DNA from: an uncultured Oscillospiraceae bacterium
GTDB taxonomy: Bacteria > Bacillota > Clostridia > Oscillospirales > Oscillospiraceae
Length of the DNA stretch: 64,000 bases
Assembly (NCBI GenBank): GCA_947624985.1
Contig: CANQMO010000014.1
Coordinates: 17,857-81,856, forward strand
Direction of reading: 5' to 3'
This document shows positions 17,407 to 39,038 of the stretch, piece after piece (position 1 is the stretch's first letter; each line of letters starts with the position of its first letter). The notes beneath the pieces are model-generated. The model was not told the DNA's origin, did not search any database, and saw only the letters and a program-made list of their open reading frames with translations. Both the position numbers and the translations under genes were made by a program.

Positions 17407-17441
17407 CGGCTGGGTGATAAAAAACGAAAGGAGACGAGGAT

Positions 17442-17825: not shown

Positions 17826-17835
17826 CATCTTTATT

Positions 17836-18507: not shown

Positions 18508-18511
18508 TGAT

Positions 18512-19915: not shown

Positions 19916-19917
19916 CA

Positions 19918-21162
19918 ATGCTGACGCCTGAGTACAAACGGCGCGTTGCGGAGGGAAGCGAGATGATCGCGTCCCTTTTGCATGAGGAGATCATCAAGAT
20001 CATCGTCGAGGCCATTGTGACCAGGATGGAGCGGGGCGTTGATTACCGGCTGACGGCCCGGGACAGGTGGCTGCTGGAGACGTTGCAGACCGCCGGGTAT
20101 CTCCGGGCGGATCTGGAGCGGGAGATCGCCGCCAAGACAAAGCTCATGCTCAGCGAGATACAGGACGCCTTCCAGGACGCCGCTGTGCGGAACATGGCCT
20201 GGGATGACGCGGTGTACAAGGCCGCCGGCCTGGAGCCGCCGCCCATGCGCCAGTCTCCTTACCTGCTGCGGCTGGTGCAGCGGGGCTACGAAAAGACCGC
20301 GGGGGAGTGGGTCAACTTCACCGGGACCCTGGCGGACACGACGCAGCAGGTGTTTATTAGGGAGTGCGACAAGGCGTACAACCTGGTGGCGTCGGGGGCC
20401 ATGGGGCAGGATCAGGCGGTGCGCCAGGCGGTGGATACCGTGGCCAGCGAGGGCGTGGTGGTGAAGTACACCCGCCAGCGGCCCGACGGGACCCGGTACG
20501 TCTACCACACGGATACCATCGAGACGGCCACGGCCCGGGCGGTGCGGACCGGCGTGGGACAGGCATGCGGGGAGATGACCCTGGCCCGGATGGAGGAGAT
20601 GGACTGGGACATCGTGCTGGTCACCGCCCACCTGGGGGCCCGGACCGGCGACGGCGGGGAGAATTTTACCAATCACTTCTGGCTGCAAGGTAAATTCTAC
20701 AGCCGGGACGGGTCCGACAAGCGCTTCCCGCCGCTGAGCGTGTGCGGGATCGGGGACGTGCAGGGCCTACTGGGGGCCAATTGCCGGCACAGCATAGGCC
20801 CGGGGGACGGACGGTTCATCCCCGACGAGCTTAAGATCGACAGCGAGGAAAACCAGCTCCGGGAGGAGCAGGAACAGAAACAGCGGAAGCTGGAGCGGAC
20901 CATCCGCAAGACCAAGCGGGAGGTCCAGGGCCTGAAAACGGCCATGGACGCGGCGGAGGACCCGGCGGACAAGGCGGCCTTGAAGGCCCGGTACCAACAG
21001 CAGGCCCTGAAGCTCCGGGAGCAGAACCGGGCATATCAGGATTACTGCGACGAGACCGGGCTCAAGACCCAGAGCGAGCGGCTGCATATCGCCGGCTGGG
21101 ACCGGAAACAGGCGGCAGCAGCCTCCGGCGCGGCCCGCACCGCGGCGAAAGTGATGAGCTGA
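19918..21162 (+). CDS. Phage minor capsid protein 2 (head morphogenesis)
   Basis: The 414-residue protein belongs to the minor capsid protein 2 family. The conserved features are EWVNFTGTLADTTQQ near residue 125, RQRPDGTRYVYHTDTIETATARAVRTG near 190, and GANCRHSIGPG near 285. A charged coiled coil closes the protein. It is thought to sit inside the portal vertex. It starts three bases after the portal stop. Confidence 0.88.
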   Translation: MLTPEYKRRVAEGSEMIASLLHEEIIKIIVEAIVTRMERGVDYRLTARDRWLLETLQTAGYLRADLEREIAAKTKLMLSEIQDAFQDAAVRNMAWDDAVYKAAGLEPPPMRQSPYLLRLVQRGYEKTAGEWVNFTGTLADTTQQVFIRECDKAYNLVASGAMGQDQAVRQAVDTVASEGVVVKYTRQRPDGTRYVYHTDTIETATARAVRTGVGQACGEMTLARMEEMDWDIVLVTAHLGARTGDGGENFTNHFWLQGKFYSRDGSDKRFPPLSVCGIGDVQGLLGANCRHSIGPGDGRFIPDELKIDSEENQLREEQEQKQRKLERTIRKTKREVQGLKTAMDAAEDPADKAALKARYQQQALKLREQNRAYQDYCDETGLKTQSERLHIAGWDRKQAAAASGAARTAAKVMS

Positions 21163-21185
21163 CGATAAAATACCAGTTGACGAAA

Positions 21186-21214
21186 GCGCAGTGCGTTTTG
21201 CACCGTGCTTTTTT
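21186..21214 (+). terminator. Probable terminator before the scaffold gene
   Basis: GCGCAGTGC pairs with GCACCGTGC with one wobble and one mismatch, followed by six T. It may reduce transcription into the scaffold and capsid genes. Confidence 0.5.
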
Positions 21215-21315
21215 CAAACCCAATTTCGCTGGTACCGGGCGTGAACAGGTACGACCCGCGCGGGGGTCGCGTCCCCGTAAAACAGCCGCGTAGCGGGGGA
21301 AAGGAAAGGAAACGT

Positions 21316-21936
21316 ATGAAGCGAGAATTTTTGGAGGGCCTTGACCTGGGCGACGGCGCCAAACTTCCGAAGAAAGCTGTGGAGGCCATCATGGCCGAAC
21401 ACGGGAAAACGCTCAATCAGCTGACCAGTGATCGTGACGCTTGGCGGCAGCGAGCCGAGACCGCCGAGGCGATAGTCCAGAAAATCCCCAAGGACCAAGA
21501 CCCGGCAAAGCTGGTGGAGGCGCTGAACGAGGCGCAGACCGCACTGGAGACCGCCAAGACGGACTACGACAATAAGCTGGCGGCCCGGGACTTCGACGAC
21601 GCCCTGCGTGCGGCCATGCAGGAGTATAAGTTCACCTCTCCCGGGGCGCAACGCGACGCCGAACGCCAGATCCGGGAAGCCGGCATGTCGGCCCGGGACG
21701 GTAAGATCCTGGGCTTGAAGGAGTTTATGGACGATCTCCGGGAAAAGGACCCCTCCGCTTTTGTGGATGAGCAGGCGGAGAAGGCCGAGGCCGACAAGGC
21801 CCACTTCACCAGGCGCACCACAGACGGCGGGAAGGACAAAAAAACCATGACCCGCGACGAGATCATGGCCATGCCGGACCGGGCGGCCCGGCGAAAGGCC
21901 ATCGCAGAAAATATGGAACTTTTTGAAAACAAATAA
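21316..21936 (+). CDS. Phage scaffold protein (GP20 family)
   Basis: The 206-residue protein is mostly charged coiled coil (about residues 35-115) with the GP20-type ending TMTRDEIMAMPDRAARRKAIAENMELF. It should guide capsid assembly and leave or be degraded before packaging. ATG 21316 follows GGAAAGGAAACGT. The ORF-track extension to 21205 lacks a ribosome site. Confidence 0.88.
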   Translation: MKREFLEGLDLGDGAKLPKKAVEAIMAEHGKTLNQLTSDRDAWRQRAETAEAIVQKIPKDQDPAKLVEALNEAQTALETAKTDYDNKLAARDFDDALRAAMQEYKFTSPGAQRDAERQIREAGMSARDGKILGLKEFMDDLREKDPSAFVDEQAEKAEADKAHFTRRTTDGGKDKKTMTRDEIMAMPDRAARRKAIAENMELFENK

Positions 21937-21951
21937 GGAGGATTTTTTATC

Positions 21952-23106
21952 ATGGCAGAAAATAACCTGATCGTAAGTGCGGACCTCGCCCGCGTGCGCG
22001 AGGTCGAGTTTGTCAATAGTTTCGGCGATTCCATCAAGAAGCTTATGGAGGCGCTGGCTGTGACCCGCAAGATCCCGAAGAAGTCCGGCACGGTGCTGAA
22101 GGTCTACAAGGCCGTAGGTAACTTGCAGAGCGGCGATGTGGCCCCGGGCGAGATCATCCCTCTGAGCAAGTACAAGACCGAGGGTAAGGAGCTCGGCGCC
22201 ATCAAGATGAAGAAGTGGCGGAAGGCCGTCACGGCGGAGGCCATTGAGGAACGTGGCTTTGATCAGGCGGTGGATGATACCACCGCTGAAATGCTCAAGG
22301 ACGTGCAGAAGGGGATCCGGAAGGACTTCTTCGACTTTCTGGCAACCGGGACCGCCACGGCACGGGGCGACACGTTCCAGGCGGCGCTGGCCCGGGCGTG
22401 GGGGCAGTTGCAGGTGCTGTTCGATGATGACGGCGTCGCCAGCGTGTTCTTCATGAACCCCATGGACGTGGCCGATTATCTGGCCAACGCGCCCATCACC
22501 ATGCAGACGGCTTTTGGGATGAGCTATGCCGAGAACTTTCTGGGTCTTGGTACCGTGATCTTGAACGGATCAGTGCCCCAGGGCAAAATCTTTGCCACGG
22601 CCAAGGATAACCTGGTCCTGTACTATATCCAGGTGGACGACGCAGACCTGGGCAAGGCGTTCACCTTCACCACCGACGACACCGGGTACATTGGCATCCA
22701 CGAGGTAGCCGACTATGCCAACCTGACGGCCTCTGATACGGTGGTTTGCGGCATGCAGCTTCTGGCTGAGCGGCTGGACGGGATCGTGGTGGCCACCATC
22801 GGCCCGGAGACCGCGCCCACCATCGGCAAGCTGACGGTTTCCAGCGGCGAGGGCACCAGCGAGGGCAAGACCAAGCTGACTGTCACCGAGGGTAAGCTGG
22901 ACGCCGCCAACAGCTACAAGTATCGTCTGGGCGACCACGCCGACGATGTCGCATATGGCCAGAACGTCAAACAGTGGAAGGTGTGGGACGGCTCCGCCGA
23001 GATCGACGCCACCACCGGCCAGACGCTTACCCTGGTGGAGTGCAACAAGGAGTACGGGGCTGTGGCTGTGGGCTCCTGCACTGTGACCGCCAAGGCCGGC
23101 GCGTAA
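21952..23106 (+). CDS. Major capsid protein with added C-terminal domain
   Basis: The 384-residue protein has an HK97-like capsid core over the first 285 residues (for example KKWRKAVTAEAIEERGFDQAVDDTTAEMLKD and FFMNPMDVADYL). A roughly 100-residue beta-rich Ser/Thr/Lys-rich domain follows, likely displayed on the capsid surface. There is no separate protease and no N-terminal delta domain, consistent with a separate scaffold. AGGAGG lies before the ATG. Confidence 0.9.
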   Translation: MAENNLIVSADLARVREVEFVNSFGDSIKKLMEALAVTRKIPKKSGTVLKVYKAVGNLQSGDVAPGEIIPLSKYKTEGKELGAIKMKKWRKAVTAEAIEERGFDQAVDDTTAEMLKDVQKGIRKDFFDFLATGTATARGDTFQAALARAWGQLQVLFDDDGVASVFFMNPMDVADYLANAPITMQTAFGMSYAENFLGLGTVILNGSVPQGKIFATAKDNLVLYYIQVDDADLGKAFTFTTDDTGYIGIHEVADYANLTASDTVVCGMQLLAERLDGIVVATIGPETAPTIGKLTVSSGEGTSEGKTKLTVTEGKLDAANSYKYRLGDHADDVAYGQNVKQWKVWDGSAEIDATTGQTLTLVECNKEYGAVAVGSCTVTAKAGA

Positions 23107-23116
23107 GGAGACGCCC

Positions 23117-23632
23117 ATGTCGTATGCGACCTATGAGGATTTCAAGGCGCTGTACGGCGACGGGAAACTGGACGAGGCGGGTTTTTCCCGCCTCGTCTGG
23201 GAGGCGGAGAAGCTGATGGACGACGCCACCACGGGCGCGGACGGCGTGCGCAAGCTCCGGGCGGCCCCGCCGAAGTGCAAGTGTGATAAAGAGGCTGTCA
23301 AACGCTGCGCCTGTGCCCTGGTGGACACGCTCCGGCAGATAGAGGAGGCGGCGGAGAATATCCGCCGGGCCCAGGGATACACAGAGAACGCCGACGGGAC
23401 CTTGCAGGGCCGGGTGATCACGTCCCGGTCCGCCGGCGGAGAATCCATCAGCTACGCCACCGGCAGCGCCGCCAAGAGCGGGACGACCGCGATCGACGCC
23501 GCCGTGAGCGACATGACGGCCCGGGAACGGCTTTTCGCCGACACGGTGCGCCGGTACCTGTCCGGCGTGCCGGACGCCAACGGGGTCAATCTGCTTTACA
23601 TGGGGCCATATCCCGTGAGGATGGAGGCGTGA
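23117..23632 (+). CDS. Head-tail connector protein
   Basis: The 171-residue protein has the gp6/gp15-like helical start (YATYEDFKALYGDGKL...FSRLVWEAEKLMDDATTGADG) and a CKCDKEAVKRCACALVD segment. It lies directly after the capsid gene, the usual place of the adaptor that joins portal and tail. Confidence 0.8.
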   Translation: MSYATYEDFKALYGDGKLDEAGFSRLVWEAEKLMDDATTGADGVRKLRAAPPKCKCDKEAVKRCACALVDTLRQIEEAAENIRRAQGYTENADGTLQGRVITSRSAGGESISYATGSAAKSGTTAIDAAVSDMTARERLFADTVRRYLSGVPDANGVNLLYMGPYPVRMEA

Positions 23633-23634
23633 GA

Positions 23635-24078
23635 ATGTACGATAACACGGTCACGCTTTTCAACCGCTTGGAGCGGGACGGAGAACTGCTGTGGTACCCC
23701 ACGGTGATGACAGGCGTACACCTGGTGGATTCTGAGGCCGCCGTGGCGGCCAAATACGGCTATCAGCGGGGCGATAAGGCTTTGTTGTTCATCCACTACC
23801 TGGGCGGGCCGGACGAGCCGTCTGTGGGCGCGAAAAAATACCTGACGCCGAGGCGCTGGACAAGGGCGGAGGACCCATCCGGCGCGTTCACCTTCCAGAC
23901 GGGCGCGGACTTTGACTTTTTCATGGCCGGTAGATGGGAAGGCCCGTTCCCGGTCCGGGACGCGGATTACCCGGGCGGGTTCTACGACCACATGCAGGAC
24001 CAGTTCGACCGTGTGTGGGCCATCACCGGGGCGGAGAAGTTCGGCGTGATACCACATTTCGAGGTGACGGGACGATGA
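23635..24078 (+). CDS. Head-closure/minor structural protein
   Basis: The 147-residue beta-rich protein (MYDNTVTLFNRLERDGEL...) matches the small minor structural proteins that follow the connector in Clostridia siphophages. ATG 23635 is chosen because GGAGG lies seven bases upstream. It overlaps the next start by ATGA. Confidence 0.65.
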   Translation: MYDNTVTLFNRLERDGELLWYPTVMTGVHLVDSEAAVAAKYGYQRGDKALLFIHYLGGPDEPSVGAKKYLTPRRWTRAEDPSGAFTFQTGADFDFFMAGRWEGPFPVRDADYPGGFYDHMQDQFDRVWAITGAEKFGVIPHFEVTGR

Positions 24079-24545
24079 GCGAGCTTTATAAGATCAAAGG
24101 CTTTGACCTGACAGCGGACGGGCTGGAGGTCCATGTGCATATGGGACCCACGACCGCCAGGCTCAAAAAGGCCCATCGGAATCTGAAAGTCAACATCATG
24201 AACGCCATGATGGGTTTTATGCCGATCCGGAATGGCGATCTCATAGGAAAGACCGAGACAGCCAACACGCTGCTGCTGGACGATGAGCGCATGTATGCCG
24301 CCGCCGGCACGGACGCCAACGGCGTGCCATACGGTAAGTTCCAATACGAGGGAAAAGTGATGATCGGCGAGGAGACCGGCTCGCCGTTTGCCAGAAAGAA
24401 TGAGAAAAAGGTGGTCACCGACAGGTCGTTAGACCAGCAGCATGGTGGACACCCATATGCCGTACCGCACTGGTTTGAGGTAGCCTGGAAAAAGTACGGG
24501 AAGCGGCTGATAGGGTACGCGCAGGACGATCTGGAGGGAAAGTGA
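24075..24545 (+). CDS. Minor capsid/tail-completion protein
   Basis: The 156-residue protein contains PYGKFQYEGKVMIGEETGSPFARKNEKKV and HPYAVPHWFEVAWKKYG, characteristic of the minor capsid proteins encoded between connector and tail tube in Gram-positive phages. It is translationally coupled to the previous gene. Confidence 0.75.
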   Translation: MSELYKIKGFDLTADGLEVHVHMGPTTARLKKAHRNLKVNIMNAMMGFMPIRNGDLIGKTETANTLLLDDERMYAAAGTDANGVPYGKFQYEGKVMIGEETGSPFARKNEKKVVTDRSLDQQHGGHPYAVPHWFEVAWKKYGKRLIGYAQDDLEGK

Positions 24546-24546
24546 T

Positions 24547-25068
24547 ATGGACCGGACGAGCGAGGCGAAAAACCAGCCCGCCAAATACGACTTGGAGGGC
24601 GAGCCGACCCTGACGGACGCCATCGGCGCGCTGCTGTGCGATTTCCCCGGGCTGGACGAGGGAGAGAAGGTTGCCTTTGCCACCCTGCGCGAGACGGGAG
24701 GCATGGCCATGTTCCCCGGAGGCGGGCCGGTGGTGGAGGATGAGCGGCGCAGCGTCACGGGCCGGGTACGGCAGGTATGCCGATACCCCTTTGCGGTGCT
24801 ATACCGTCGGTCTGGATTCAGCGAGAGTGCACGGGCCTCCGCCAAGGAGAGGCTGGACGCCCTGGGCCGGTGGCTGGGCGGCCAGCCGGTCTCCATTGAC
24901 GGCACGGCATACCGCATGGCGGAGTATCCGGCACTGGACGGCGGTCGAAAGATCCTGGACTTCTCCATCGAGGCGCCGGCTTACCTGTACACGCGGGACG
25001 ATCACCAGGTGGAGACCTGGGCGGTGGAGATCTCCGCCCGATATGAGAACATTTTCCAAAAAAATTGA
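24547..25068 (+). CDS. Tail terminator/minor capsid protein
   Basis: The 173-residue protein sits directly before the major tail protein, the usual place of the tail terminator. Features are LTDAIGALLCDFPGL, a central R-rich beta part and a closing VETWAVEISARYENIF. The position and a recurring family in Clostridia phages support a structural role. The exact role is inferred. Confidence 0.7.
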   Translation: MDRTSEAKNQPAKYDLEGEPTLTDAIGALLCDFPGLDEGEKVAFATLRETGGMAMFPGGGPVVEDERRSVTGRVRQVCRYPFAVLYRRSGFSESARASAKERLDALGRWLGGQPVSIDGTAYRMAEYPALDGGRKILDFSIEAPAYLYTRDDHQVETWAVEISARYENIFQKN

Positions 25069-25081
25069 GGAGGTCATTTCT

Positions 25082-25654
25082 ATGAAACTGGAACGCGAGG
25101 CCCTGGGCCACTATCTGGACACCAAGTTCAACAAGAAGGTGAGCGAGGCGGCCAGCGCCGAGTTTGAGATCATCGGCGACGACATTGAGGAGATGAGCGT
25201 GGAGCTCAACGCCGACACCGAGCAGGTCAAAAATATCCTGGGCCAGACCAAGACCCGGGATAACGGCTATGCTCCCAGCATGGAGGCGGATCCGTTCTAT
25301 GCGGACCCGGACAAGAAGCTTTATCCCAAGCTGCGGGATATCGCCATGAACCGGCTCAAGGGGGACCCCTGCAAGACCCTTATGCTGGAGGTGCTGGTGG
25401 AGGACACCGAGGCCGAGAACCACAAAGCCTGGCTGCGGGAGGTCATCGTCAAGCCCCAGAGCTACGGCGGCGACACGGCAGGATTCAACATTCCCTTTTC
25501 GGTCAGCGAGGACGGCGAGAGCGTAGAGGGCTATGTTTCCGCCGAATCCATGATGACCGGTAACCCCACCTTTACCGTGGGGGCTCTGCCGATCCTGACG
25601 AAGGGCAAGGTACCGGTGACCACGGCGGGCAATACTGCCGGGTCCGGAAAGTGA
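25082..25654 (+). CDS. Major tail tube protein
   Basis: The 190-residue protein has the tail-tube pattern: MKLEREALGHYLDTKFN, VELNADTEQVKNILGQTKTRDNGY and a DPFYADPDKKLYPKLRD segment, and lies between terminator and tape measure. It would form the tube whose length the tape measure sets. A strong terminator follows, so it may be made in excess over downstream genes. The 327-residue ORF-track reading includes a spurious N-terminal part. Confidence 0.88.
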   Translation: MKLEREALGHYLDTKFNKKVSEAASAEFEIIGDDIEEMSVELNADTEQVKNILGQTKTRDNGYAPSMEADPFYADPDKKLYPKLRDIAMNRLKGDPCKTLMLEVLVEDTEAENHKAWLREVIVKPQSYGGDTAGFNIPFSVSEDGESVEGYVSAESMMTGNPTFTVGALPILTKGKVPVTTAGNTAGSGK

Positions 25655-25655
25655 C

Positions 25656-25690
25656 AGAACAGCCCGGGTCACCCGGGCTGTTCTGATTTT
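25656..25690 (+). terminator. Terminator after the tail tube gene
   Basis: AGAACAGCCCGGGT pairs perfectly with ACCCGGGCTGTTCT and is followed by GATTTTA. It would lower expression of the tape measure and distal tail genes relative to the tube. Confidence 0.8.
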
Positions 25691-25715
25691 ATGCGTTTTG
25701 GGAGGGAAAAGAAAT

Positions 25716-26165
25716 ATGGCTGACGTGATGAAGCTGCGGGTGGAGACCGGCGCGGTCACCGTGGAGGTAGAGGACGAGCGGGGCGTGGTGCTGGGGACAT
25801 TCGACTTCAACCCCACCGATTCCAACATACTGAGCCGCTACGGCAAGGTGGTTGATTTCTTCAACGCCGTCTCCTTTGACACGGAGGCGGACGATGAGCA
25901 GCAGATCGCCCAGATGGACAAGCTGAACGGCGACATCAAGGAGCAGTTCGATTATCTGCTGGGCTATGAGGTCTCCGAGGGCCTCTTTGGCCGGTGCGGT
26001 CCTTTGACCGTCACCAAAAACGGCGACTTCTTCTTCGAGCAGGTGCTGGACAATGTGGGCAAGATCATCGAGCAGACCACCAAAAAGCGCCTGGACAAGA
26101 AGCTGGCCAGGATCAAAAAGGCCGTGGACGGAGCGCCCGGGAAAAGGGCCAGACAAAGAAAATGA
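25716..26165 (+). CDS. Tail assembly chaperone (first)
   Basis: The 149-residue acidic protein lies between tail tube and tape measure and ends in a basic stretch (KKRLDKKLARIKKAVDG). This is the usual chaperone slot. It overlaps the next gene by four bases rather than using an evident frameshift. Confidence 0.72.
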   Translation: MADVMKLRVETGAVTVEVEDERGVVLGTFDFNPTDSNILSRYGKVVDFFNAVSFDTEADDEQQIAQMDKLNGDIKEQFDYLLGYEVSEGLFGRCGPLTVTKNGDFFFEQVLDNVGKIIEQTTKKRLDKKLARIKKAVDGAPGKRARQRK

Positions 26166-26734
26166 CCCCGTGGGAATTGCCCACGTCGCTGGAGATCGGC
26201 GGCGTGGGTTATGCCATAAACACGGATTTTCGGACCGTGCTTTATGTGCTGGACGTTTTTGCAGATCCGGATTATGAGGATGATGAGCGGCCCGCCATAT
26301 GCTTACAGGTGATGTATCCGGATTGGGAGACCATCCCCCAGGAGCGCCGAAAGGAGGCGCTGGAGCGGGTGGTGGATTTTATCGACATGGATATGCCGGA
26401 GGGCACAGAGGGCAACCACGGGCGGCGTCCCAGGCTGGTAGACTGGCGGCAGGACGCGCCAATGATCGTCCCGGCGGTGAACAAGGTGCTGGGCGCGGAG
26501 GTGCGGGCTATGGAGTACCTGCACTGGTGGACGTTCCTGGGCGCCTACATGGAAGTGGGCGACAGCCTCTTTTCGTCGGTCTTGGGGATCAGGCAGAAAA
26601 AGAGAAAGGGAAAACCGCTCGAGAAGTATGAGCAGGAGTTTTACAGGGAGAACAGAGCCCTGATCGACATAAAAAAACGGGACAGCGCGGCGGAGACCGA
26701 AAGGAGAGCGGCGCTGAAAAAACTGTTCGTGTGA
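26162..26734 (+). CDS. Gp15-family tail assembly chaperone (second)
   Basis: The 190-residue protein matches the bacteriophage Gp15 family ([59 protein letters not shown]). Such proteins coat or deliver the tape measure before tube polymerisation. It begins in an ATGA overlap with the first chaperone and ends just before the tape measure. Confidence 0.85.
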
Positions 26735-26744
26735 GGTGAGGGAT

Positions 26745-29700
26745 ATGGCAGCCACTGACGGCTCCGTGATCATCAAAGTAAGATTCGATGTGGACGACGT
26801 CAATGCGGGCGTCGGCGACATTGAAGCGGGGTGCAAGCGTGCGGCCTCCGCCACGGAGAAAGCGGGTAAGTCCATGGCCCGGGCGCTGTCGGGCGGCAAA
26901 TATGACCGGGGCGCAATGGCGTTCATGGACAGCTTTGAAAAACAGCTGGAGGAGACGGCCACCAAGACAAAAAAGGTGATGAAGAGTGCCGCCGGTATCC
27001 ATGTGGCAGACGACGGAAGTGCGGACAACCTGCAGCAGCAAATCGAATCCGTAAAGATAGCACTGCGGGAGATGGAGGCGGCAGGGCTCGGAGCGGGAGA
27101 TACAAAGTGGGACGAGGCATACCAGACGCTCTGCCAATTGGAGGCCGAACTGAAGCGGTATAAAAATGAACTGAAAACAGCAGCGCTGGCGGAACAGGAG
27201 ACTGCAGCGGCGACGGGTCAAGTGTCGGCCTGGTCACGGTTCAAGTCCATGCTGACCGACGTGGCCGCGAGGCTCCGGGAGACTGCGGCAGCGAGTATGA
27301 CCGCGAAAAACAGCACAAAAGGGCTAAATAACAGCCTGGCACGTCATGCAAAGACCATGCTGAAGTACGGATTGGGGATCAGATCAGTTTTTGTGCTGAC
27401 AAACAGGTTGCGCGGTGCGCTTACAGACGGATTCGCCCAGCTGGCGGAGCAGGATAGCGAGACCAAGGCCACGCTGGACGGGCTGAAAGCCAGCCTGAAC
27501 AGCGTGAAAATGAGCCTGGCCACGGCGTTTAAGCCGGTTTTGACGGCGGCGGCGCCGTATCTCAGTAAGCTGTGCAGCATGCTGGTGACGGCGATGAACT
27601 ATGTGGCCATGTTTTTCTCCGTGCTGGGTGGCAAAAAGAGCTATCTAGGCGTGGCCACCGGCACGACGGGGACGGCGCCGATAGCTGGGCCCGGGGTGCG
27701 TGTGGCCACCATCGGCCAGGACGGACAGGCGACGGGAGACAACGCCACGGAGGGCCCGAGCGCCGCCGCCAGCTTTGCCAGCCGCGCGGGAGCGGCCTAT
27801 GCGACGATAGCAAGAACGGCGGCGGCAACGTCTGGCACCGGTCGCGCGGGCGGTCTGTCCGCCGCGGGATACGCCGATATGGGCGCGGCCATGGACGCCG
27901 CGGCTGAAAGCGCGGAGCGGTTCGAGCGGACGGCTACGGCCAGCTATGCGGCGGTGGGAAGGACCATTGCCGCCGTCACGGACAAGGCGGCTGGTACGGC
28001 GGAGGCCATAGCGCACACGGGCGACGAGGCCGATGAAACGGCGAACAAGGTCCGCGCCATAGGCAAAGCGGGCAAGGACGCGGAGCGCAATCTCTCCGGG
28101 CTGGACGAGATGAACATATGGCAGTCGGCGGAGGAGACAGACGCTTCCGGCGGCGCAGGTGGTAGTGGAGGGGGTCTGGACGTGGGCGGCGGCCCGACGT
28201 TGCAGGAGATCCCCATCGACGATTCGGTTGCGGAGCGGCTGAAACATATTGCGGGGCTGGTGGCCGCCATCGGCGCGGGTCTGCTGGCCTGGAAGATATC
28301 CAGAGCGCTGGGCGCGGATCTTAAAACTGCGGCGGCGCTGGCGCTGGGCGTGGCCGGGGCGGTGGAGATGATAAAAGGCGGTTTTGACGCATGGACCAAC
28401 GGCGTTGACTGGGGAAATTTTTTTGAAATGCTCGGGGGTACCGGTCTCCTTGCCGGCGGTCTTGCAATTAAATTCGGGAAAATCGGAGCGGCGATTGGAC
28501 TTCTCGTCGGAGGCATAGAACTGCTGATCACGGGTTTCAAAGACTGGTGGACTACAGGAGACCTTACAAATAAGAGCCTTGCGGCAATTGAAGCGGGGCT
28601 TCTGGGGGTCGGGGTAGCTATCGGCCTGCTGACGGGTACATGGATACCGCTGGTCATCGCGGCAATCGCCGGCGGAATACTGGCCATCGCAAAGTTTACA
28701 GGGCACGCGGATGAGATGATCGAAGGGATCAAGCTGGCGGTACGAGGGCTCGTCGACTTCTTTACCGGCATAGCGACTGGAGACCTTGAGGGCACGCTTT
28801 TGGGCGTAGAGGAGACCCTGAACGGCCTGCGTGATTTTGTGATGTCGGTCGTCGCGTCCATACGGGATGTGGGACTGAAATTTTTTGATTGGCTAGATGG
28901 CGTTACCGGGGGCCGTTTCAGCGGGATCATTGACAAGGCGAAGAAAATCTGGGAAGTGGGATTTGAGTTTATCGGAGACGTGGTAACAACCGCCATGGAA
29001 ACAGTGAAAGGTGTTTTGAGCGGGCTGATCACATTTCTCGCGGGTATCTTTACCGGGGACCTGCAAAAAGCTGGCGAAGGGATAAAGCAGGTATTTGCAA
29101 GTATTTGGGAAGGTATAACGGGCGAGAAGCTTTCAGAGACGAAAGCGAAAGTGATAAATGTCTTTGAGGGCATACGGAGCACAATATCTGAAAAGATCGA
29201 GGCGGCCAAGACGGCGGTACAAAATGCCGTCGAGAAGATCAAGAGCTTTTTCAACTTCTCGTGGAGCTTGCCGCATATCAAACTGCCGCATTTCTCCATC
29301 ACCGGCGGGTTCAGCCTGGTCCCGCCCAGCGTGCCTAAGTTTTCTGTGAACTGGTATGCCAAGGGCGGTGTCGTGGATGGCGCCACGCTGATAGGCGCGG
29401 GGGAGGCCGGCAAAGAGGCGATCATCCCTCTGGAGCGGCATACCGAGTGGATAGACGCCGTGGCGCAGCGGCTGGCGGCGCTGCTGGACGGACGGGAGCG
29501 CCTGCGTGGACTGGACGATGTGGCCGAGCGGCTGGGAGCGCTGGCGGCGTCTATCGACAGGCTGGGGCTGAACATTTCGTCGTACCGGCAGCCGGTCATG
29601 GCCACCGGCACGGTGATCCCACCGCGTGCCGTCTACACGGAGCGGGAGCAGCCGGCGCCGCTGGACGGCGAGAGCTTGCGGCAGCTGCTGGCGGGCCAGA

Positions 29701-29837
29701 CCACCGGGTGGAGCGACCGGGACGTCAACTATACCTTCATCGCAAAGCTGAGCGAGCGGGAGATATTCCGGGCCGTCATTTCGCAGGGGAAGCTGGAACA
29801 AATGCGCTCCGGCGCAAATCCATTCGATCTGAAATGA
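26745..29837 (+). CDS. Tail tape measure protein (element 1)
   Basis: The 1030-residue protein has a coiled-coil start, a conserved segment ([20 protein letters not shown]...), a short GLDEMNIW motif before a Gly-rich hinge, several hydrophobic stretches (about residues 490-700) and a C-terminal part read by the baseplate. It sets tail length and may help DNA entry. ATG 26745 follows GAGGTGAGGGAT. The shorter relative in element 2 has the same GxDExN-plus-Gly layout. Confidence 0.92.
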
Positions 29838-29861
29838 CAGGTGTGACAGGAGCGTGGACCT

Positions 29862-30260
29862 ATGCAGCGCATGCAAGATTACATCAAAATGAACGGCAAG
29901 GTGATCCATCAGCCTGACACGGGCCTGGGATACAGCTTTGAGACCACCTACACGGAGGATTCTACCCGCGTACAGAGCGGGCGGGCCTATACCACGCCCA
30001 TGTTTACCGTCGAATCGCTGTCCTACTACGCGACATGGATAACGGCGGCGCGGATGAGTGAGATCTTGCAGATCATCGAGCCGGGCCATCCCTTCAAGCT
30101 GCACTATTTCTCGCCTTACTACGGCTGCTGGAGGGATGATGAGTTTTATGTCGGCAAGGGCACGCTGTCCATCGGCTACCTCAATGCCGATGACGAGGTT
30201 TTTGACAAGCTGAGTTTTAACCTGATTGGGGTGAATCCGGTTGATCCAAGTAAGCGATGA
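29862..30260 (+). CDS. Small tail protein (DUF6711-like)
   Basis: The 132-residue beta-rich protein lies between tape measure and the large tail protein and matches a family common there in Clostridia siphophages (MNGKVIHQPDTGLGYSFETTYTEDSTR). It is probably part of the distal tail. It overlaps the next gene. Confidence 0.7.
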   Translation: MQRMQDYIKMNGKVIHQPDTGLGYSFETTYTEDSTRVQSGRAYTTPMFTVESLSYYATWITAARMSEILQIIEPGHPFKLHYFSPYYGCWRDDEFYVGKGTLSIGYLNADDEVFDKLSFNLIGVNPVDPSKR

Positions 30261-32814
30261 ATTTAAGCGGCTGATGAAGACCCGCACGGACTTCAAGGCC
30301 CACGCCGAGGTAACGCTGGCTAATGGCGAAAAGCTGGCCCTCGGCGACGATGAGCTTTTGATGAGCGGTCACACGCTTACGGACGGCGCGGGGGCCTCCG
30401 GACTGCCTCTGGGCGCCGCTGTCTGCCGCACGGTGCAAATTAAGATAAACAACCGGGATGGCCGCATGGACGGCTATGACTTCTTCGGCGCCCGTATTCG
30501 GTTCTGGCTCACCTACCGGCTGTCAGAGACGGTGGAGCGTGTCGAGCTTGGCATGTTCACGGTGACAGAACCGGAAAGCTGGGGCGAGACGGTCACCATC
30601 ACTGCCGGGGACGACATGACCCGGGCGGACAGGACATTCGCGCCAGGCCGGGATACGGACCTGACGCTGGGGGAGCTCTTCCGGGCGGTCTGCGATCAGT
30701 GCGGGATAAGCTACACAACGGCGGTGTTTCGCAATTCGGACCTCCGGGTCACAGTGCCGGCAGATGAGTACACATGCCGCCAGCTGCTGGGATACATCGC
30801 CATGCTGGCCGGCGGGAATGCACGGATAGACCGCCTGGGGCACATCGAGATACTGAGCTATGACAAGGCCGGAGAGCCCGATCACGATCTGACGGACTGG
30901 AGCAGCCTCACCACGGACACGGACGATATCTATGTGACCGGACTGGAGGCGGAGACAGAGAGCGGGACGGTCCTGGAGGGGACTGAGGGGTATGTCCTGC
31001 AAGTGGACAACCCGTTGATGGAGGGGCGCGAGGCCGAGGCGCTGGCCCGGATGGGTGACGTGCTGCTGGGAATGACGCTCCGCAAATTCGATGGGTCCCA
31101 TGTGGGGTATCCGCTGGCGGAGTGCATGGATACGGTGCGGTTGACAGACCGGCGCGGCAGAAAGTACACGTCCGTCATTACGGACGTGACATATACATTC
31201 GGGGCGCTCACGGAGATCTCCAACAGCGCGGAGGGCGTTGTGCGAAACGGGAGCCGGTATGTGTCCGGGGAGACCCGGGCGAAGATCGCCGCCCGGAAGC
31301 TGGTGGAGCAGGAGCGGACCAGACGCGAACAGGCCGTGAAGGATCTGAAAGACACGCTGGACCGCTCATCCGGCATGTACACGACTGAGGTAAAACTGCC
31401 GGACGGGTCGAAGATATCATATGTCCACGACAAACCGACGCTGGCGGAATCCGGGATCGTGACGAAATACACGGTGGAGGCTGTGGGCTTTTCGACCGAC
31501 GGGGGCAAAACATACCCATACGGCGTGACGGTCAACGGAAAGGTGATCATGGGGATCATCCAGGCGGAGGGGGTCAACGCCGACTGGATCAACACCGGAA
31601 CGCTGAACGCCTCTCGCCTGGGCGCCGGGACTATAACGGCGGACAAGCTGAGCATTAAAGACCTTTCGGCGCTGAGCGCGACGATCGGAGGATGGACCAT
31701 CGCCGGCAGCGCCATCTACAACGGTTTGCCGTATACGGGGCAGAAAAGCTCCAATGCTACTGGGATAGGCGACTATGGCGGCGGATGGGCTTTTTGGGCA
31801 GGAGACGGCCGGTTTTGGGTAAAACAATCCGGTGAGTTTTTCGCTGAGAGTGGGACCGTGGCCGGATGGAGGCTTGGGACCGGCTGGCTGACAGGCACGG
31901 ACCCGGCGTCTGGTCGGATCACGGCCATGCAAAGCCCGTCCGCAAACGTTAAATGGGTCTTTGCCGCCGGCGGAACAGATCCCAACGACTACAGCGCCTT
32001 TCCGTTTCGTGTGGACAAGGAGGGCAACCTCTACGCGGCCAGCGCAAGTATAAGCGGGACCATAAGCGCCGGTGGTACATACTGGGGCGGGCTATCCAGC
32101 GCGACGGGGTCCGTATCAAGCCTGAGCGGGTCGCTGTCCGGCGCGAATTTGCTGTCATGCGGGACCTATGGCACGTCGTTTACCGTTGCGGGCGGTGGAT
32201 CGATCACGAATTATTCCGGAGGCACCACATATGGTAGCAGCGGTTTAGCAGTTATCAGGTCAGGGAATGCACTGCATGTTTTCAACGGAAGTCATTTGGG
32301 GGTGCCTGGAGCGCTTAGTTGTGACGGGGATTTCTCGTGCAACGGGGTTAAACACCGTGCGATCAGCACAGTGCATTATGGCAGGAGAGCCCTATCCGCG
32401 TACGAGACGCCTCTGCCAACGTTTGCCGACTATGGCATGGCCGAACTGGACGAAAACGGCGCGTGCTACATCACAATTGATCCCATATTTGCCGAAACGG
32501 TAGACGAAGCGTATCTGCCGACGGTGTTTTTGACCAAATACGGTCAGGGAGATATCTGGGTGGAGACCGTCGAGCACGATACCGTCACGGTCAGAGGGAC
32601 AGCGGGACTGCGGTTCTCCTGGGAGACACGTTTTTTCCAGACTAACGCAGACGTGGAGCGCCTATCTGTTTTGGGCTACGACTATAGGGACGAAAGCATG
32701 GAGCAGGATTTCGAGGGCGACGCCGCTGTCGCATATGAGCATAGCGCGGAGAATGTGGATTACGCCCATGCGGGGTATGAATACTTCACAGATTTTGAAA
32801 GGAGCCAAAAATGA
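30241..32814 (+). CDS. Large tail/baseplate protein (prophage endopeptidase-tail type)
   Basis: The 857-residue protein starts with a tail-hub-like part (residues 1-350) typical of Gram-positive siphophage tail proteins. A middle with NADWINTGTLNASRLGAGTITADKL and GG-rich beta repeats, and a host-facing C-terminal part ending in short Tyr/Asp-rich repeats, follow. The TTG start has GGGGTGA at six bases. No clear peptidase residues are seen. It forms the baseplate hub and carries the fibre. Confidence 0.8.
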   Translation: MIQVSDEFKRLMKTRTDFKAHAEVTLANGEKLALGDDELLMSGHTLTDGAGASGLPLGAAVCRTVQIKINNRDGRMDGYDFFGARIRFWLTYRLSETVERVELGMFTVTEPESWGETVTITAGDDMTRADRTFAPGRDTDLTLGELFRAVCDQCGISYTTAVFRNSDLRVTVPADEYTCRQLLGYIAMLAGGNARIDRLGHIEILSYDKAGEPDHDLTDWSSLTTDTDDIYVTGLEAETESGTVLEGTEGYVLQVDNPLMEGREAEALARMGDVLLGMTLRKFDGSHVGYPLAECMDTVRLTDRRGRKYTSVITDVTYTFGALTEISNSAEGVVRNGSRYVSGETRAKIAARKLVEQERTRREQAVKDLKDTLDRSSGMYTTEVKLPDGSKISYVHDKPTLAESGIVTKYTVEAVGFSTDGGKTYPYGVTVNGKVIMGIIQAEGVNADWINTGTLNASRLGAGTITADKLSIKDLSALSATIGGWTIAGSAIYNGLPYTGQKSSNATGIGDYGGGWAFWAGDGRFWVKQSGEFFAESGTVAGWRLGTGWLTGTDPASGRITAMQSPSANVKWVFAAGGTDPNDYSAFPFRVDKEGNLYAASASISGTISAGGTYWGGLSSATGSVSSLSGSLSGANLLSCGTYGTSFTVAGGGSITNYSGGTTYGSSGLAVIRSGNALHVFNGSHLGVPGALSCDGDFSCNGVKHRAISTVHYGRRALSAYETPLPTFADYGMAELDENGACYITIDPIFAETVDEAYLPTVFLTKYGQGDIWVETVEHDTVTVRGTAGLRFSWETRFFQTNADVERLSVLGYDYRDESMEQDFEGDAAVAYEHSAENVDYAHAGYEYFTDFERSQK

Positions 32815-33083
32815 GGAGGGAAAAACTGACTAGCGCCACGCTGCACAACACACAACAGGGGCCGTACATATCATATACCTATTCGGTCGAGGATACATCG
32901 ACCGGAGAGACGCTGCAATCAAATATACGAGACGGGCTTCGTCTGATCGACGGTATTGCGGATATGGATGAGGCGAAAAAACACTTTGACGCCATTTTTG
33001 ATTTTATCAAAGCAAAGCGGAGAGAAAAGAGAGCGGCTGAGCTTGAGGCGCTCAAAGATATGATGGGGGAGGTCGAACAGTGA
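32811..33083 (+). CDS. Small tail-associated protein
   Basis: The 90-residue protein begins in an ATGA overlap. Its second half is a charged helix (AKKHFDAIFDFIKAKRREKRAAELEALKDMM). Position in the tail operon is the only clue to role. Confidence 0.6.
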   Translation: MRREKLTSATLHNTQQGPYISYTYSVEDTSTGETLQSNIRDGLRLIDGIADMDEAKKHFDAIFDFIKAKRREKRAAELEALKDMMGEVEQ

Positions 33084-33274
33084 ACAAGATCCAAGAAGAA
33101 ATAGATCAGGCTTTTGGCCTGATCAGCAATATCGCGGTGTCCGGCCCCGCCGTTGACGTGATGTTCTCGGCAAAACAGCACTTGCGGCAGGCGTCAGATC
33201 TGGTGAGTGCTTTGAACGAGAAAAAGGACAGCGCTGGGCCGGGGAAAACCGGCGAGGGAGGCCCGACGAAATGA
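33080..33274 (+). CDS. Small tail-associated protein
   Basis: The 64-residue protein (GTG start in a 4-base overlap) has a helical core (EIDQAFGLISNIAVSGPAVDVMFSAKQHL) and a Gly/Lys tail. Short proteins of this kind precede the upper baseplate protein in Clostridia phages. Function unknown. Confidence 0.55.
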   Translation: MNKIQEEIDQAFGLISNIAVSGPAVDVMFSAKQHLRQASDLVSALNEKKDSAGPGKTGEGGPTK

Positions 33275-33308
33275 CTGGGCGGGTCCGGCAGGTAGGGGGT
33301 GAGAGCGA

Positions 33309-34643
33309 ATGGCTATAGCACGGCAAAAAATTACACTGGACGTCTACAAAGAAGAATACTACAAGTACGTCAACGCAAAGCAGGATGATAATATCAGCCG
33401 GCTGCTCATAATAACGCTCACCGCGAACGATGAACGCCTAAAGCTTGACAGCGATCAGGAGCAGGCGTATTTCCGGGCGGTCAAACCGGATGGATATGAC
33501 ATCATAAACCCGGCCACTATCAACAAGGACGGGGATATCGAGGTGGCGCTGACAGATCAGGTGCTGGCTTGCCCGGGTAAAGTGGAGGCCGACGTTGCTG
33601 TATCAGACGGGGAAAATGTCTTGGCGTCTGCCACGTTTTTTATCCAGGTCGAGCCGATCCCCAGGAGCGGGAAAAGCATTGTCAGTACCAATGAGTTTCT
33701 CGTTTTGGTCGAGGCCACGGAGCGGGCGGAGGCGGCGGCGCGGGCAGCAAATAAGGCCAAGGAGGACGCGGACGCCGCGGAGACGCTCCGGCAGCAGGCC
33801 GAGGACCTCCGGCAGCAGGCCGAAGAAACCCGCGAACAGATGGCCAATGAAATAGCGGAGGCGGAGAACAGCCGGGAAAGTGCCGAAACGGCCCGGGCCG
33901 ACGCGGAACGTCTGCGGACTGAGGCGGAGGATCACCGCGCCACAGCCGAAGTAGCCCGCCAGCAGGCCGAGGACGAGAGAGCCGAGACGTTTGCCGCGGC
34001 GGTCGAATCCGTCAACAACGCAGTTTCTGACGCCGCAGAGGCGACCCAAAAAGCCGAGGAAGCGGCGGGGGAAGCTGACGCCTCAGCCGGGCGAGCAAAT
34101 GCGGCGAGCGAAGCTGCTGAGGGGGCAGCCCAAAAGGCGCTCGCCGCGGCCGAATTGCCGTACCATCCGCCGCAGGTAATGGACGGCGAACACTACTGGT
34201 CATTTTGGGACGCGGCCCGTGGCGAGTATGTGCAGAGCGATTTGCCCGCAGGTGTGTGGATCACCGGCGTTCGGGCGGTCACCGGCGAGCCGGGGACTGA
34301 GGCGTCCGTGGTCAACGAGGGCACGGCCATGGAGCAACAGCTGGTGTTTACCATCCCCCGGGGTCAGGACGCCGACATCAAGACCTGGGCCGTGTCGGTA
34401 CCGGCGGAAGGGTGGACGCCGGGCGAGGACACCTATGGCACCATCACAGGCCGGTTTTGTGCCCAGGTGCCGCTGGACGGCCTCAGCGAGGACCCAAAGG
34501 ACCTGCGTATCGAGTACGCCGGCGGGGACATGACGGCGTACTGCACCATGGATTACTGGCGGTCCGCCGCCGGCGAGCTGACGCTTTGGGCGGTCACGGC
34601 GCCGGGCGCAGACTTTGAGATCAAGATCGTGGAGGTGATGTGA
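33309..34643 (+). CDS. BppU-family upper baseplate protein
   Basis: Residues 1-130 match the BppU N-terminal domain that docks on the baseplate. Residues 135-280 are a long Ala/Glu/Arg coiled coil with repeated RQQAEDxR units. The rest is a beta domain carrying the host-binding end (WSFWDAARGEYVQ). It would present receptor-binding fibres as in lactococcal phages. Confidence 0.85.
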   Translation: MAIARQKITLDVYKEEYYKYVNAKQDDNISRLLIITLTANDERLKLDSDQEQAYFRAVKPDGYDIINPATINKDGDIEVALTDQVLACPGKVEADVAVSDGENVLASATFFIQVEPIPRSGKSIVSTNEFLVLVEATERAEAAARAANKAKEDADAAETLRQQAEDLRQQAEETREQMANEIAEAENSRESAETARADAERLRTEAEDHRATAEVARQQAEDERAETFAAAVESVNNAVSDAAEATQKAEEAAGEADASAGRANAASEAAEGAAQKALAAAELPYHPPQVMDGEHYWSFWDAARGEYVQSDLPAGVWITGVRAVTGEPGTEASVVNEGTAMEQQLVFTIPRGQDADIKTWAVSVPAEGWTPGEDTYGTITGRFCAQVPLDGLSEDPKDLRIEYAGGDMTAYCTMDYWRSAAGELTLWAVTAPGADFEIKIVEVM

Positions 34644-34644
34644 T

Positions 34645-35091
34645 ATGGGCTCTGGATTGCTCAAGCGGCCCCGGACACCGGCGGACCTGGCTGCTATCTA
34701 TTTGGCCGCCCACCCCGTCGGATCGCTCTATGTGTCCTTTGACAAGACCAGCCCCGCCGAACTGTACGGCGGGGCGTGGGAGCAGATCAAGGACCGGTTT
34801 TTGCTGGCGGCGGGCGACGCCTACAACGCCGACAGCACCGGCGGCGCGGCCAGCGTCACCAGCGGCGGTACGGCGATAAGTGTAGCGCAAATGCCTGCGC
34901 ATAGTCATGGGGTAGATGGTATCCAATGGCCAGGCCCAGGGGACCAGCCCGGCTGGACCGGCTGGGGAGAAGGCCCAAATGTCCGCACGACAACTACCTC
35001 AAAAATTACCGGTGGCGGACAGCCTCACACCCACACGGTGGCCACCATGCCGCCGTACATCGTCGCCTACGTCTGGCGGCGGGTGGGCTAA
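34645..35091 (+). CDS. Tail fibre tip protein with HxH motif (first copy)
   Basis: The 148-residue protein has AAHPVGSLYVSFDKTSPAELYGGAWEQI, a PAHSHGVDG metal-type HxH and a closing MPPYIVAYVWRR, the phage tail-collar/short fibre tip pattern. It has a clear relative 0.6 kb downstream (35637). The middle differs, so the pair may offer two receptor specificities. Confidence 0.8.
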   Translation: MGSGLLKRPRTPADLAAIYLAAHPVGSLYVSFDKTSPAELYGGAWEQIKDRFLLAAGDAYNADSTGGAASVTSGGTAISVAQMPAHSHGVDGIQWPGPGDQPGWTGWGEGPNVRTTTTSKITGGGQPHTHTVATMPPYIVAYVWRRVG

Positions 35092-35115
35092 AACAAAAAA
35101 AGAAGGGAGCAAGTC

Positions 35116-35571
35116 ATGGAAACTACGACGATCGTTGACCAGCAGGGCAACCCCTTGGACAATTACGACCCCGATCTGGGGTACCTGGAGACCCATACCG
35201 AGATCATCCACCACCCGGCCGACGAGGCCGTGGCAGAAGTCTCACATTATGTGCCGGTGCAGGAGTTCCCCGCCACCGGCGGACGAATCGTCCAGAAGGT
35301 CATAGACGTGCCGGGCGTGGAGGCCCAGGAGGCGTGGGATGAGCCTGTCACCACGCAGGTATACATACCCTACACCGCGGCGGAGCTCGCGGCCCGGGAC
35401 CGCGCGCGGCGTATCGCCGAGCTCAAACGGTCATTGTCCGAAACGGACTACACGGTCATCAAGATCGCAGAGGGCTCGGCCACGGCAGAGGAGTACGCGG
35501 CGGTGATCGAGCAGCGGCGCGCCTGGCGGGCGGAGATCAACCGCCTGGAGGCCGAGGGGCAGGAGGTATGA
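35116..35571 (+). CDS. Tail fibre assembly-like protein
   Basis: The 151-residue protein is acidic, with a C-terminal helical region (SETDYTVIKIAEGSATAEEYAAVIEQRRAWRAEINRLEA) typical of tail-fibre assembly chaperones and a modest beta N-terminal part. It lies between two related fibre tip genes. Confidence 0.75.
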   Translation: METTTIVDQQGNPLDNYDPDLGYLETHTEIIHHPADEAVAEVSHYVPVQEFPATGGRIVQKVIDVPGVEAQEAWDEPVTTQVYIPYTAAELAARDRARRIAELKRSLSETDYTVIKIAEGSATAEEYAAVIEQRRAWRAEINRLEAEGQEV

Positions 35572-35612
35572 CCATGGTCGATAGGTTCAAGCTCCCCACC
35601 GGGGGGGGGTAA
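35568..35612 (+). CDS. Tiny ORF ending in a run of nine G
   Basis: Fourteen codons (MTMVDRFKLPTGGG) start behind AGGAGGT and stop at TAA right after nine G. In related phages a fibre-type gene begins with a like segment and continues, so this looks like the surviving start of a gene, or one whose frame depends on the G-run length. Confidence 0.4.
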   Translation: MTMVDRFKLPTGGG

Positions 35613-35636
35613 TTCCCGGGGCCGCGGAGGTGTGGC

Positions 35637-36110
35637 ATGAGCGCCGGCGTGAATCAGCTTGCGGCGCTGCGCCGGGAGATACTGCTGGCGGCCCATCCTG
35701 TCGGGACGATATACACGTCTGACAGCCCCACCAGCCCCGCCGAGCTGTTCGGCGGGACCTGGGAGCGGCTGGAGGGCCGGTTTGTACTGGGGGCCAGTGC
35801 GGCACACCCTGCTGGCAGCACCGGCGGCGAAGAGGCCGTGGCGCTCAAAGCGCCAAACATCGCTCCGCACCAGCACGGCCCGGGTACGCTATATGTCACC
35901 TACTTTGGCGAATACCTTGGAGACGCCATCGCCGCGCAGCACTCACCGTTTAGAGGGTACACATTAAATCTTGATAGTGGCGTGCAAACCAATCTGACCC
36001 GGCATGCAATGCTGTCTGGCCTGACAGATTCAGGCCAAGGCATCACCGGCGCGGCCCATAACAACATGCCGCCCTATTACGCCGCCTACGTCTGGCGGCG
36101 CCTGGAATAG
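35637..36110 (+). CDS. Tail fibre tip protein with HxH motif (second copy)
   Basis: The 157-residue protein repeats the first copy's layout: AAHPVGTIYTSDSPTSPAEL, GGTWERLEGRFVLGA, an HQH motif and a final NNMPPYYAAYVWRR. It lies behind GGAGGTGTGGC. The two copies are alike at both ends and differ in the middle, so duplication followed by divergence of the receptor-facing part is likely. Confidence 0.8.
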   Translation: MSAGVNQLAALRREILLAAHPVGTIYTSDSPTSPAELFGGTWERLEGRFVLGASAAHPAGSTGGEEAVALKAPNIAPHQHGPGTLYVTYFGEYLGDAIAAQHSPFRGYTLNLDSGVQTNLTRHAMLSGLTDSGQGITGAAHNNMPPYYAAYVWRRLE

Positions 36111-36161
36111 AGCGGAGACACACAAAAACAAAATAAAATTTATGCAAAGGAGCGTAAAAAA

Positions 36162-36614
36162 ATGAATAACACAGTCAAGATGGTGGTGGCCGCTATTTTT
36201 GCGGCCACCGGCGCGTATTTCCGGGAGCTGCTGGGGCCGATCCTGGTCCTGGTGGCAGTCATGCTGCTGGACTACATATCCGGCATGGCCCGGGCGTGGG
36301 CAGAGAAGGACCTGTCCTCCCGCATGGGCGTGCTGGGGATAGTCAAAAAGCTGCTGTACCTGGTGGCGGTGGCGGTGGCCGTCGTGGTGGACTGGGTCAT
36401 CCAGACGGCGGCGGCCAAGGCCGGTATCAATGCCGTGGGCGTACACTTCGTGGGGCTTCTGGTGGCGATTTGGCTCATTCTCAACGAGTGTATCAGCATA
36501 TTGGAGAACGTATCCGCCCTGGGCGTGCCGATCCCCGCATTTTTGCAGACAATCATCGAGCGGCTGAGACAGACCACAGAGACCGAGGCGGAGGAGGGAG
36601 GCAGCCATGAGTAA
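36162..36614 (+). CDS. Phage holin (phage_holin_4 type)
   Basis: The 150-residue protein has about three to four membrane segments (residues 5-25, 30-47, 66-85, 95-115), a DYISGMARAW motif typical of holin family 4, and an acidic C terminus. It forms pores for the endolysin or permits its release. It overlaps the endolysin gene. Confidence 0.88.
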   Translation: MNNTVKMVVAAIFAATGAYFRELLGPILVLVAVMLLDYISGMARAWAEKDLSSRMGVLGIVKKLLYLVAVAVAVVVDWVIQTAAAKAGINAVGVHFVGLLVAIWLILNECISILENVSALGVPIPAFLQTIIERLRQTTETEAEEGGSHE

Positions 36615-37434
36615 CGCAGCGCAGGTAGTGTCCATCGCCCTGGCGGAGGTGGGCTACAAAGAGAAGGCCACCAACGCCAGCCTTGACCTGGCCACCGCCA
36701 ACGCTGGCAGCGGCAACTGGACCAAATACGCCCGGGACCTGTACGCCGCCGGGTACTACAACGGCAACAAAAACGGCTACGCCTGGTGCGACGTGTTCGT
36801 GGACTGGTGCTTCTTCAAGGCCTTCGGCAAGACAGAGGGACAGCTGGTGGAGTGCCAGACCGGGACGCTGGGTGCCGCGTGCCCGTACAGCGCCGGGTAC
36901 TACAAGGCCCTGGGTCGGTACGACCGGAGCCCCCGGGTGGGGGACCAGGTGTTTTTCCAGCAGGGCGGTGAACTGGTCCACACCGGTATCGTGGTGGGCG
37001 TCAGCGGCAGCACTATCACCTGCGTGGAGGGCAACGCCTCCGACATGGTGAAGCAGACCAGCTACAGCCTCTCCAACGGCTATGTGGCTGGGTTCGGCCA
37101 TCCCCGGTATGACGATGAGAGCGGGGCGGTCACGCCGGCGCCCGCCCCGTCCCCTGAGCCCGCCCCGGTGGCTACGATCGTGACGATCCAGCTACCGGTG
37201 CTGCGCGAGGGCATGACGAGCATGGCGGCGATCAAGTCCATCCAGCGTATCTGCTACGCCCGGGGCTGTCTGGACAACGCCGGCCGGCAGATCAAGGTGG
37301 ACGGCAATTTCGGCCCCGCCACGAAGCAGGCGGTGATCAAGCTGCAGAGGCAGCTTTGGCCGAACACTTCCTCCAAGTGGGACGGCGTGGTGGGCGCCGA
37401 GACCTGGGCCTCCGCCATGAACCAGCTTTGGTAA
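36607..37434 (+). CDS. Endolysin, CHAP amidase/endopeptidase with PG-binding domain
   Basis: The 275-residue protein has a CHAP domain (about residues 10-165) with the catalytic Cys in YAWCDVFVDW and His in ELVHTGIVVGV. After a Pro-rich linker, a peptidoglycan-binding domain (KSIQRICYARG, VDGNFGPATKQAV, about 200-275) follows. It should cut peptide cross-links of the host wall. The start overlaps the holin. Confidence 0.9.
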   Translation: MSNAAQVVSIALAEVGYKEKATNASLDLATANAGSGNWTKYARDLYAAGYYNGNKNGYAWCDVFVDWCFFKAFGKTEGQLVECQTGTLGAACPYSAGYYKALGRYDRSPRVGDQVFFQQGGELVHTGIVVGVSGSTITCVEGNASDMVKQTSYSLSNGYVAGFGHPRYDDESGAVTPAPAPSPEPAPVATIVTIQLPVLREGMTSMAAIKSIQRICYARGCLDNAGRQIKVDGNFGPATKQAVIKLQRQLWPNTSSKWDGVVGAETWASAMNQLW

Positions 37435-38914: not shown

Positions 38915-38942
38915 GGGTTCGAATCCTTCTCCCGCTGCCAAC
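38915..38942 (+). other. Junction site attR(E1)/attL(E2)
   Basis: This is an exact copy of the 28-base core. Here it joins the right end of element 1 and the left end of element 2, with no host DNA between them. Confidence 0.88.
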
Positions 38943-38946
38943 AAAA

Positions 38947-38980: not shown

Positions 38981-38997
38981 ATGTCTTGAAACAGGGT

Positions 38998-39021: not shown

Positions 39022-39038
39022 CAGGGTATTTTTGGCCG

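Follow-up and report, generated by a model that had tools for sequence, protein, structure and literature searches.

Two mobile elements lie in tandem at a single tRNA-Gln gene of an uncultured Oscillospiraceae bacterium, within the 64,000-nucleotide stretch of DNA analysed here ('the window'). The first, prophage A, spans 36.4 kb and looks like a complete prophage of the siphophage type. The second, element B, encodes a tape measure protein (TMP) of its own, preceded by a probable tail assembly chaperone (TAC). We consider it reasonably probable (about 0.6) that B is an integrase-mobilised satellite, and that its TMP is a working part from which chimeric tails would be built on a helper phage. 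Three copies of the att core, together with two distinct pairs of arm-type repeats, mark out the two tandem elements: AAAATGCTAACT occurs at 2660-2712 and 38825-38862 in A, and TTTTCCCTTAT at 38997-39021 and 55990-56014 in B. A and B each encode a tyrosine integrase of their own next to the left att. The G+C content of B is 51%, that of A 59% and that of the host flanks 61%. The coordinates of these and other features are collected in the table.

The structural and lysis block of prophage A comprises, by PHROGs matches, the large terminase, portal, minor head, scaffold, major head and TMP genes, followed by tail tip, holin and endolysin. B is of a different kind. It is a discrete, integrase-borne, att-flanked element below ~20 kb, and it carries a D5 helicase and a small terminase without a complete set of virion genes, as satellites of the PICI-like kind do. 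In profile searches of B, genes for the capsid, portal, large terminase, tail tube, tail tip and lysis all went undetected, and the only structural matches were the TMP and the small terminase. The sequence-only reading of this DNA had called B a satellite, and that label is supported by its att and arm sites, by the genes it carries and by its sister elements. For B proteins, a search of viral contigs for close relatives gave distant TMPs or nothing, and a scan of genome contigs with the B TMP gave none. Small paralogues of 58 and 56 aa (Z 21.7 versus shuffles) flank the TAC-TMP region at 44287-44463 and 48967-49137. Further along, a weakly MazF-like protein (50652-51077; phrog_1936, E 0.006) is followed on the minus strand by a protein with a SocA/Panacea domain (51129-51626; Pfam E 3e-10), an antitoxin candidate, and the two are possibly a toxin-antitoxin pair.

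Table. Features of the window, with positions, and of sister satellites, with sizes
Feature	Position or size	Strand	Basis
tRNA-Gln (CTG), integration site for both elements	2475..2548	+	ARAGORN
att core copy 1, left end of prophage A	2523..2550	+	28/28 identical to 38915-38942
Integrase of prophage A	2733..3845	-	Pfam PF00589 E 1e-17
Prophage A structural and lysis genes	15824..37434	+	PHROGs
TMP of prophage A, 1030 aa	26745..29837	+	phrog_1535 E 4e-49, phrog_58 E 6e-32
att core copy 2, A/B junction	38915..38942	+	
Element B, 17.2-kb satellite	38943..56143		att copies 2 and 3 and own arm-type repeats
Integrase of element B	39039..40313	-	Pfam PF00589 E 6e-20, PF14659 E 1e-11; phrog_1
DUF6076 protein	40436..41335	-	Pfam E 6e-10
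Excisionase-like HTH protein	41603..41869	+	phrog_66 E 8e-7
D5-type primase/helicase	41866..43335	+	Pfam D5_N E 2e-27; phrog_1883 E 7e-146
Small terminase (GP3_package family)	43644..44243	+	Pfam PF16677 E 2e-7; phrog_606 E 2e-5; sister-satellite homologues
Probable TAC, 112 aa	44645..44983	+	Position, ribosome-binding site, AlphaFold, weak structural matches
TMP of element B, 1195 aa	44990..48577	+	phrog_58 E 6e-61, phrog_1535 E 2e-55
Small HTH protein	48593..48814	+	phrog_66 E 8e-4; L080/L108 homologue 38% identity, E 7e-13
117-aa protein, kept in sister satellites L097, L098 and L105	49396..49749	+	phmmer E 4e-8 to 7e-8
92-aa protein, common to other integrase/helicase satellites	53739..54017	+	86% identity in L105
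att core copy 3, right end of element B	56120..56143	+	24/24 identical
L096 satellite	10.8 kb		46-bp att repeat in tRNA-Met
L108/L080 satellite	8.0 kb		47-bp att repeat in tRNA-Gly
L097 satellite	9.1 kb		46-bp att repeat
L105 second element	8.4 kb		65-bp att repeat in tRNA-Thr

Both TMPs match several PHROG tape-measure families (E 1e-31 to 1e-61), and neither has a TMP match in Pfam or NCBIfam. The prophage protein is read from an ATG with a plausible ribosome-binding site upstream; a GTG in the same frame, at 26736, would give 1033 aa. The frame of the B TMP stays open over all of its codons, and each of the other five frames is interrupted by 22-68 stops. These open frames bear out the difference of 165 aa that the earlier reading had noticed. 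The coordinates that head that reading, 26745-29837, are those of the prophage protein; the satellite's lies outside them, at 44990-48577. In prophage A the TMP gene sits after the TAC and before the tail-tip genes, and in B it has the probable TAC on its 5' side and is without a tail-tip gene on its 3' side.

The two TMPs are distant homologues and, judged from sequence, belong to one superfamily, which is the level at which the earlier assignment to 'one family' holds. The pair aligns by BLASTP over 241 aa at 26% identity (E 5e-9 as a single comparison). The homology goes beyond low complexity, because with masking the best pieces still match at E 2e-6 and 6e-5. When segments were compared pairwise and scored as Z against shuffles, relatedness appeared in the core (A80-300 with B200-470, Z 15.7), in the xDExN/Gly-hinge region (Z 9.4) and in an amphipathic repeat (Z 11.8), and was absent from the N-terminus (Z 1.7), the middle (Z 2.2) and the C-terminus (Z 0.2). 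The 'similar flanking segments' proposed at first are thus to be found in the core and the amphipathic repeat, and not in these other three parts. The GxDExN motif, said to precede a Gly-rich hinge in both proteins, is indeed present, at A452 and at B490 (YLIGIDELNVI), with a Gly-rich stretch after each. It occurs as xDExN in 9 of the 14 TMPs examined, from unrelated prophages and satellites, and so is the mark of a superfamily, not a sign of pairing. We rejected kinship by this widespread motif as proof that A and B are partners.

The 112-aa gene directly upstream of the B TMP is probably a TAC, an assignment that draws on its position and on a structural model of moderate quality. Its ATG at 44645 is preceded by AGGAGG, it ends 6 nt short of the start codon of the TMP, and the two genes form a compact pair with good ribosome-binding sites. 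The AlphaFold model (pLDDT 80) has a beta hairpin and, after it, helices. Foldseek returned weak matches and nothing at E <= 0.001; several of the top viral ones are annotated TACs. The PLE1 TAC structure 5ir0, the one PLE sequence compared with B, reached no better than E 3.7. By sequence the protein is isolated. It has no profile match in PHROGs or NCBIfam, no homologue in 401 genomes of the family or in phage records, no solved relative, and no similarity to the two genes upstream of the TMP in prophage A. With the TAC of the sister satellite L096 it aligns weakly, at a score that 3.1% of shuffles reach.

Related elements, with B's type of integrase and helicase or of small terminase, occur across Oscillospiraceae genomes, some with a TAC and TMP and some without. 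L096 encodes an integrase, Rep, a small terminase, a TAC (phrog_183) and a TMP, and no capsid genes; capsid, portal and large terminase genes were not detected in it. Upstream of its TMP is an overlapping second frame, as in G/GT genes, and the TMP itself (765 aa) has a C-terminus that resembles B's. Another TMP, in L105, is 47% identical to it at the amino-acid level, with pN 0.38 and pS 0.72, which indicates constraint on the sequence, as a rough estimate since pS is saturated. Near the L105 TMP lies the homologue, 86% identical, of the B protein at 53739-54017. TAC and TMP are both absent from three att-delimited elements of 8-9 kb, namely L108/L080, L097 and the second element of L105. In L108 the homologue of the B gene at 48593-48814 comes directly after the small terminase, so the TAC-TMP cassette of B is an insertion between two backbone genes.

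Several observations were made alongside. A protein of ~270-360 aa, with no family match, is conserved immediately after the small terminase gene in L080, L096, L097, L099, L105 and L107. In L105 the stretch that bears the TMP abuts the second, att-delimited satellite in tRNA-Thr, so that two satellites stand in tandem at one site. The satellite of L098 has another integrase gene next to it. A sister integrase/helicase element, L071, encodes a protein of 1689 aa (13264-18333), possibly a large virion protein or an injected one. Two candidates were set aside. L041 (1-9127), considered as a second capsid-less TMP satellite, has a D5 helicase, TMP, small terminase and integrase and also encodes a major head protein; portal and large terminase genes were not seen in the part present before the contig ends inside the element. 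The TMP loci of G220 that resemble L096 belong to an ordinary prophage, with tail-tip-like genes following.

Which phage might lend its tails to B can be approached through the C-terminal part of the TMP, which in lambda-type tails meets the tail tip. The last ~190 aa of the B TMP match those of the prophage TMPs L037, L038, L039 and L043 (Z 24-28) and of the satellite L096 (Z 28), and match neither A (Z 0.7) nor C16, the assembly's other TMP (Z -0.4). The most likely helper, judged from these sequences, is therefore a siphophage whose tail tip is of the type seen in L037, L038, L039 and L043, and not A. The assembly, which is ~88% complete, yielded no helper whose tail tip matches, and at the threshold used contains no further TMP beyond those of A, B and C16. 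Prophage A itself is a possible but unlikely helper. If it were the helper, this lysogen would yield A particles with tails of ~155 nm and B particles with tails of ~179 nm; the two elements are, after all, in tandem in one tRNA, and the cores of their TMPs are homologous. Tandem insertion, however, shows that they use the same integration site, not that they are partners. A and B have unrelated C-termini (Z 0.2-0.7), yet that of A matches C16, in the second prophage, at Z 97 (and L044 at Z 46). The small terminases are unrelated as well (Z -0.8), and base composition differs. Taken together, the mismatches in C-terminus, small terminase and base composition make it more likely that the helper is a phage absent here. 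The C-terminal mismatch is not decisive, because PLE-like satellites use a TMP that is ~20% identical to that of their helper (PMC12987554). The two lengths above, which had been predicted for particles 'from one lysogen', do follow from the rule of 0.15 nm per residue; their origin in one lysogen cannot be read from the sequence and is weakly supported, since the C-terminus of the B TMP matches neither A nor C16, and would require that A, or another resident phage, accept the B TMP.

The presence of a lone TMP in B could also be explained by decay, if B were a former prophage from which the head and tail genes around the TMP had been deleted, leaving it behind. The order small terminase, TAC, TMP is indeed the normal phage order with the middle missing. 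We consider this improbable: the TMP frame and the att and arm sites are intact, and independent elements carry either the cassette (L096 and L105) or the same backbone without it (L108 and L097). The position of the cassette between backbone genes is likewise evidence against prophage debris. Satellites commonly inhibit their helpers, which lends some appeal to an account in which the B TMP and TAC are not built into particles and mainly block helper tails, by titrating the tail tube or the chaperone. The defence Rta of PLE11 targets the TMP route (PMC12987554), and fits this account too. That the TMP of B is full-length, keeps a conserved C-terminal domain and comes with its own chaperone suggests instead that it is used, and the TMPs of PLEs are present in virions and required for transfer (PMC12987554); mere interference seems the least probable of these explanations.

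On the reading we prefer, that of a satellite with a working TMP, infection by a helper or its induction would cause B to excise and to replicate with its own D5 helicase. The small terminase of B, acting with the large terminase of the helper, would direct packaging to B. B would further provide its TMP together with a chaperone dedicated to it, so that tail tubes of the helper would assemble around the ruler of B, in competition with the helper's TMP. Tails made in this way would be chimeric, with a length set by the satellite and predicted at ~179 nm by the per-residue rule.

A strong and recent precedent comes from Vibrio cholerae. Its PLE satellites PLE1, PLE4 and PLE11 encode a TMP and a TAC; virions of PLE11 contain the satellite TMP to the exclusion of that of the phage; a TMP difference of 95 aa goes with a tail 10 nm shorter; and deletion of tmp cuts transfer by 96-99.9% (PMC12987554). 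This work, of 2026, was the first in which chimeric tails were shown, and it names further putative tmp genes, some in PLE-like elements and others in cf-PICIs, the latter in Extended Data Fig. 10 (PMC12987554). B resembles the PLEs in having a TMP and an adjacent TAC (a probable one in B) that diverge from those of the phage, with most other tail genes absent, and in having a TMP length gap that predicts a tail gap (95 aa for 10 nm in PLE, 165 aa in B). It differs in belonging to an Oscillospiraceae host of the gut, in its tyrosine integrase, D5 helicase and small terminase, and in having no detected baseplate hub gene. Its helper, too, is probably a siphophage, whereas ICP1 is contractile.

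B has features in common with other satellites. Like B, cf-PICIs have been reported with predicted TMP genes; they build their own capsids, whereas neither B nor L096 has a detectable gene for capsid, portal or large terminase, or a head-gene match of any kind. Classical PICIs and SaPIs resemble B in size, integrase, regulators, replication gene, small terminase and lack of head genes, and in the probable use of the helper's large terminase, and differ in that TMP and TAC are absent from classical PICIs and present (TAC probable) in B. AH14b of Pseudomonas is an inducible element of 16.8 kb, packaged in the capsids of another prophage in one lysogen; its authors describe it as without structural protein genes, the TMP in their gene tables being that of the helper, AH14a (PMC4936722). 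AH14b and B are similar in size (16.8 and 17.2 kb). By analogy, B most likely represents the tail-ruler strategy of the PLEs in an unrelated, capsid-less, Gram-positive satellite. It is a new and independent variant of the recently described PLE-type TMP satellites.

Satellites have long been held to take the tails of their helpers unchanged. The Gram-positive satellites described here, with and without TAC-TMP, suggest that takeover of the tail ruler arose more than once. We would go further only tentatively, and propose that in gut Oscillospiraceae a separate lineage of capsid-less satellites may repeatedly gain or lose the TAC-TMP cassette, whose C-terminus would fit the tail tip of one given helper. 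By exchanging the helper's tail ruler for their own, they would make the length of the tail and the choice of helper independent of whichever prophage is resident. Satellites with the cassette and satellites without it form natural pairs for asking what a satellite gains from a ruler of its own.
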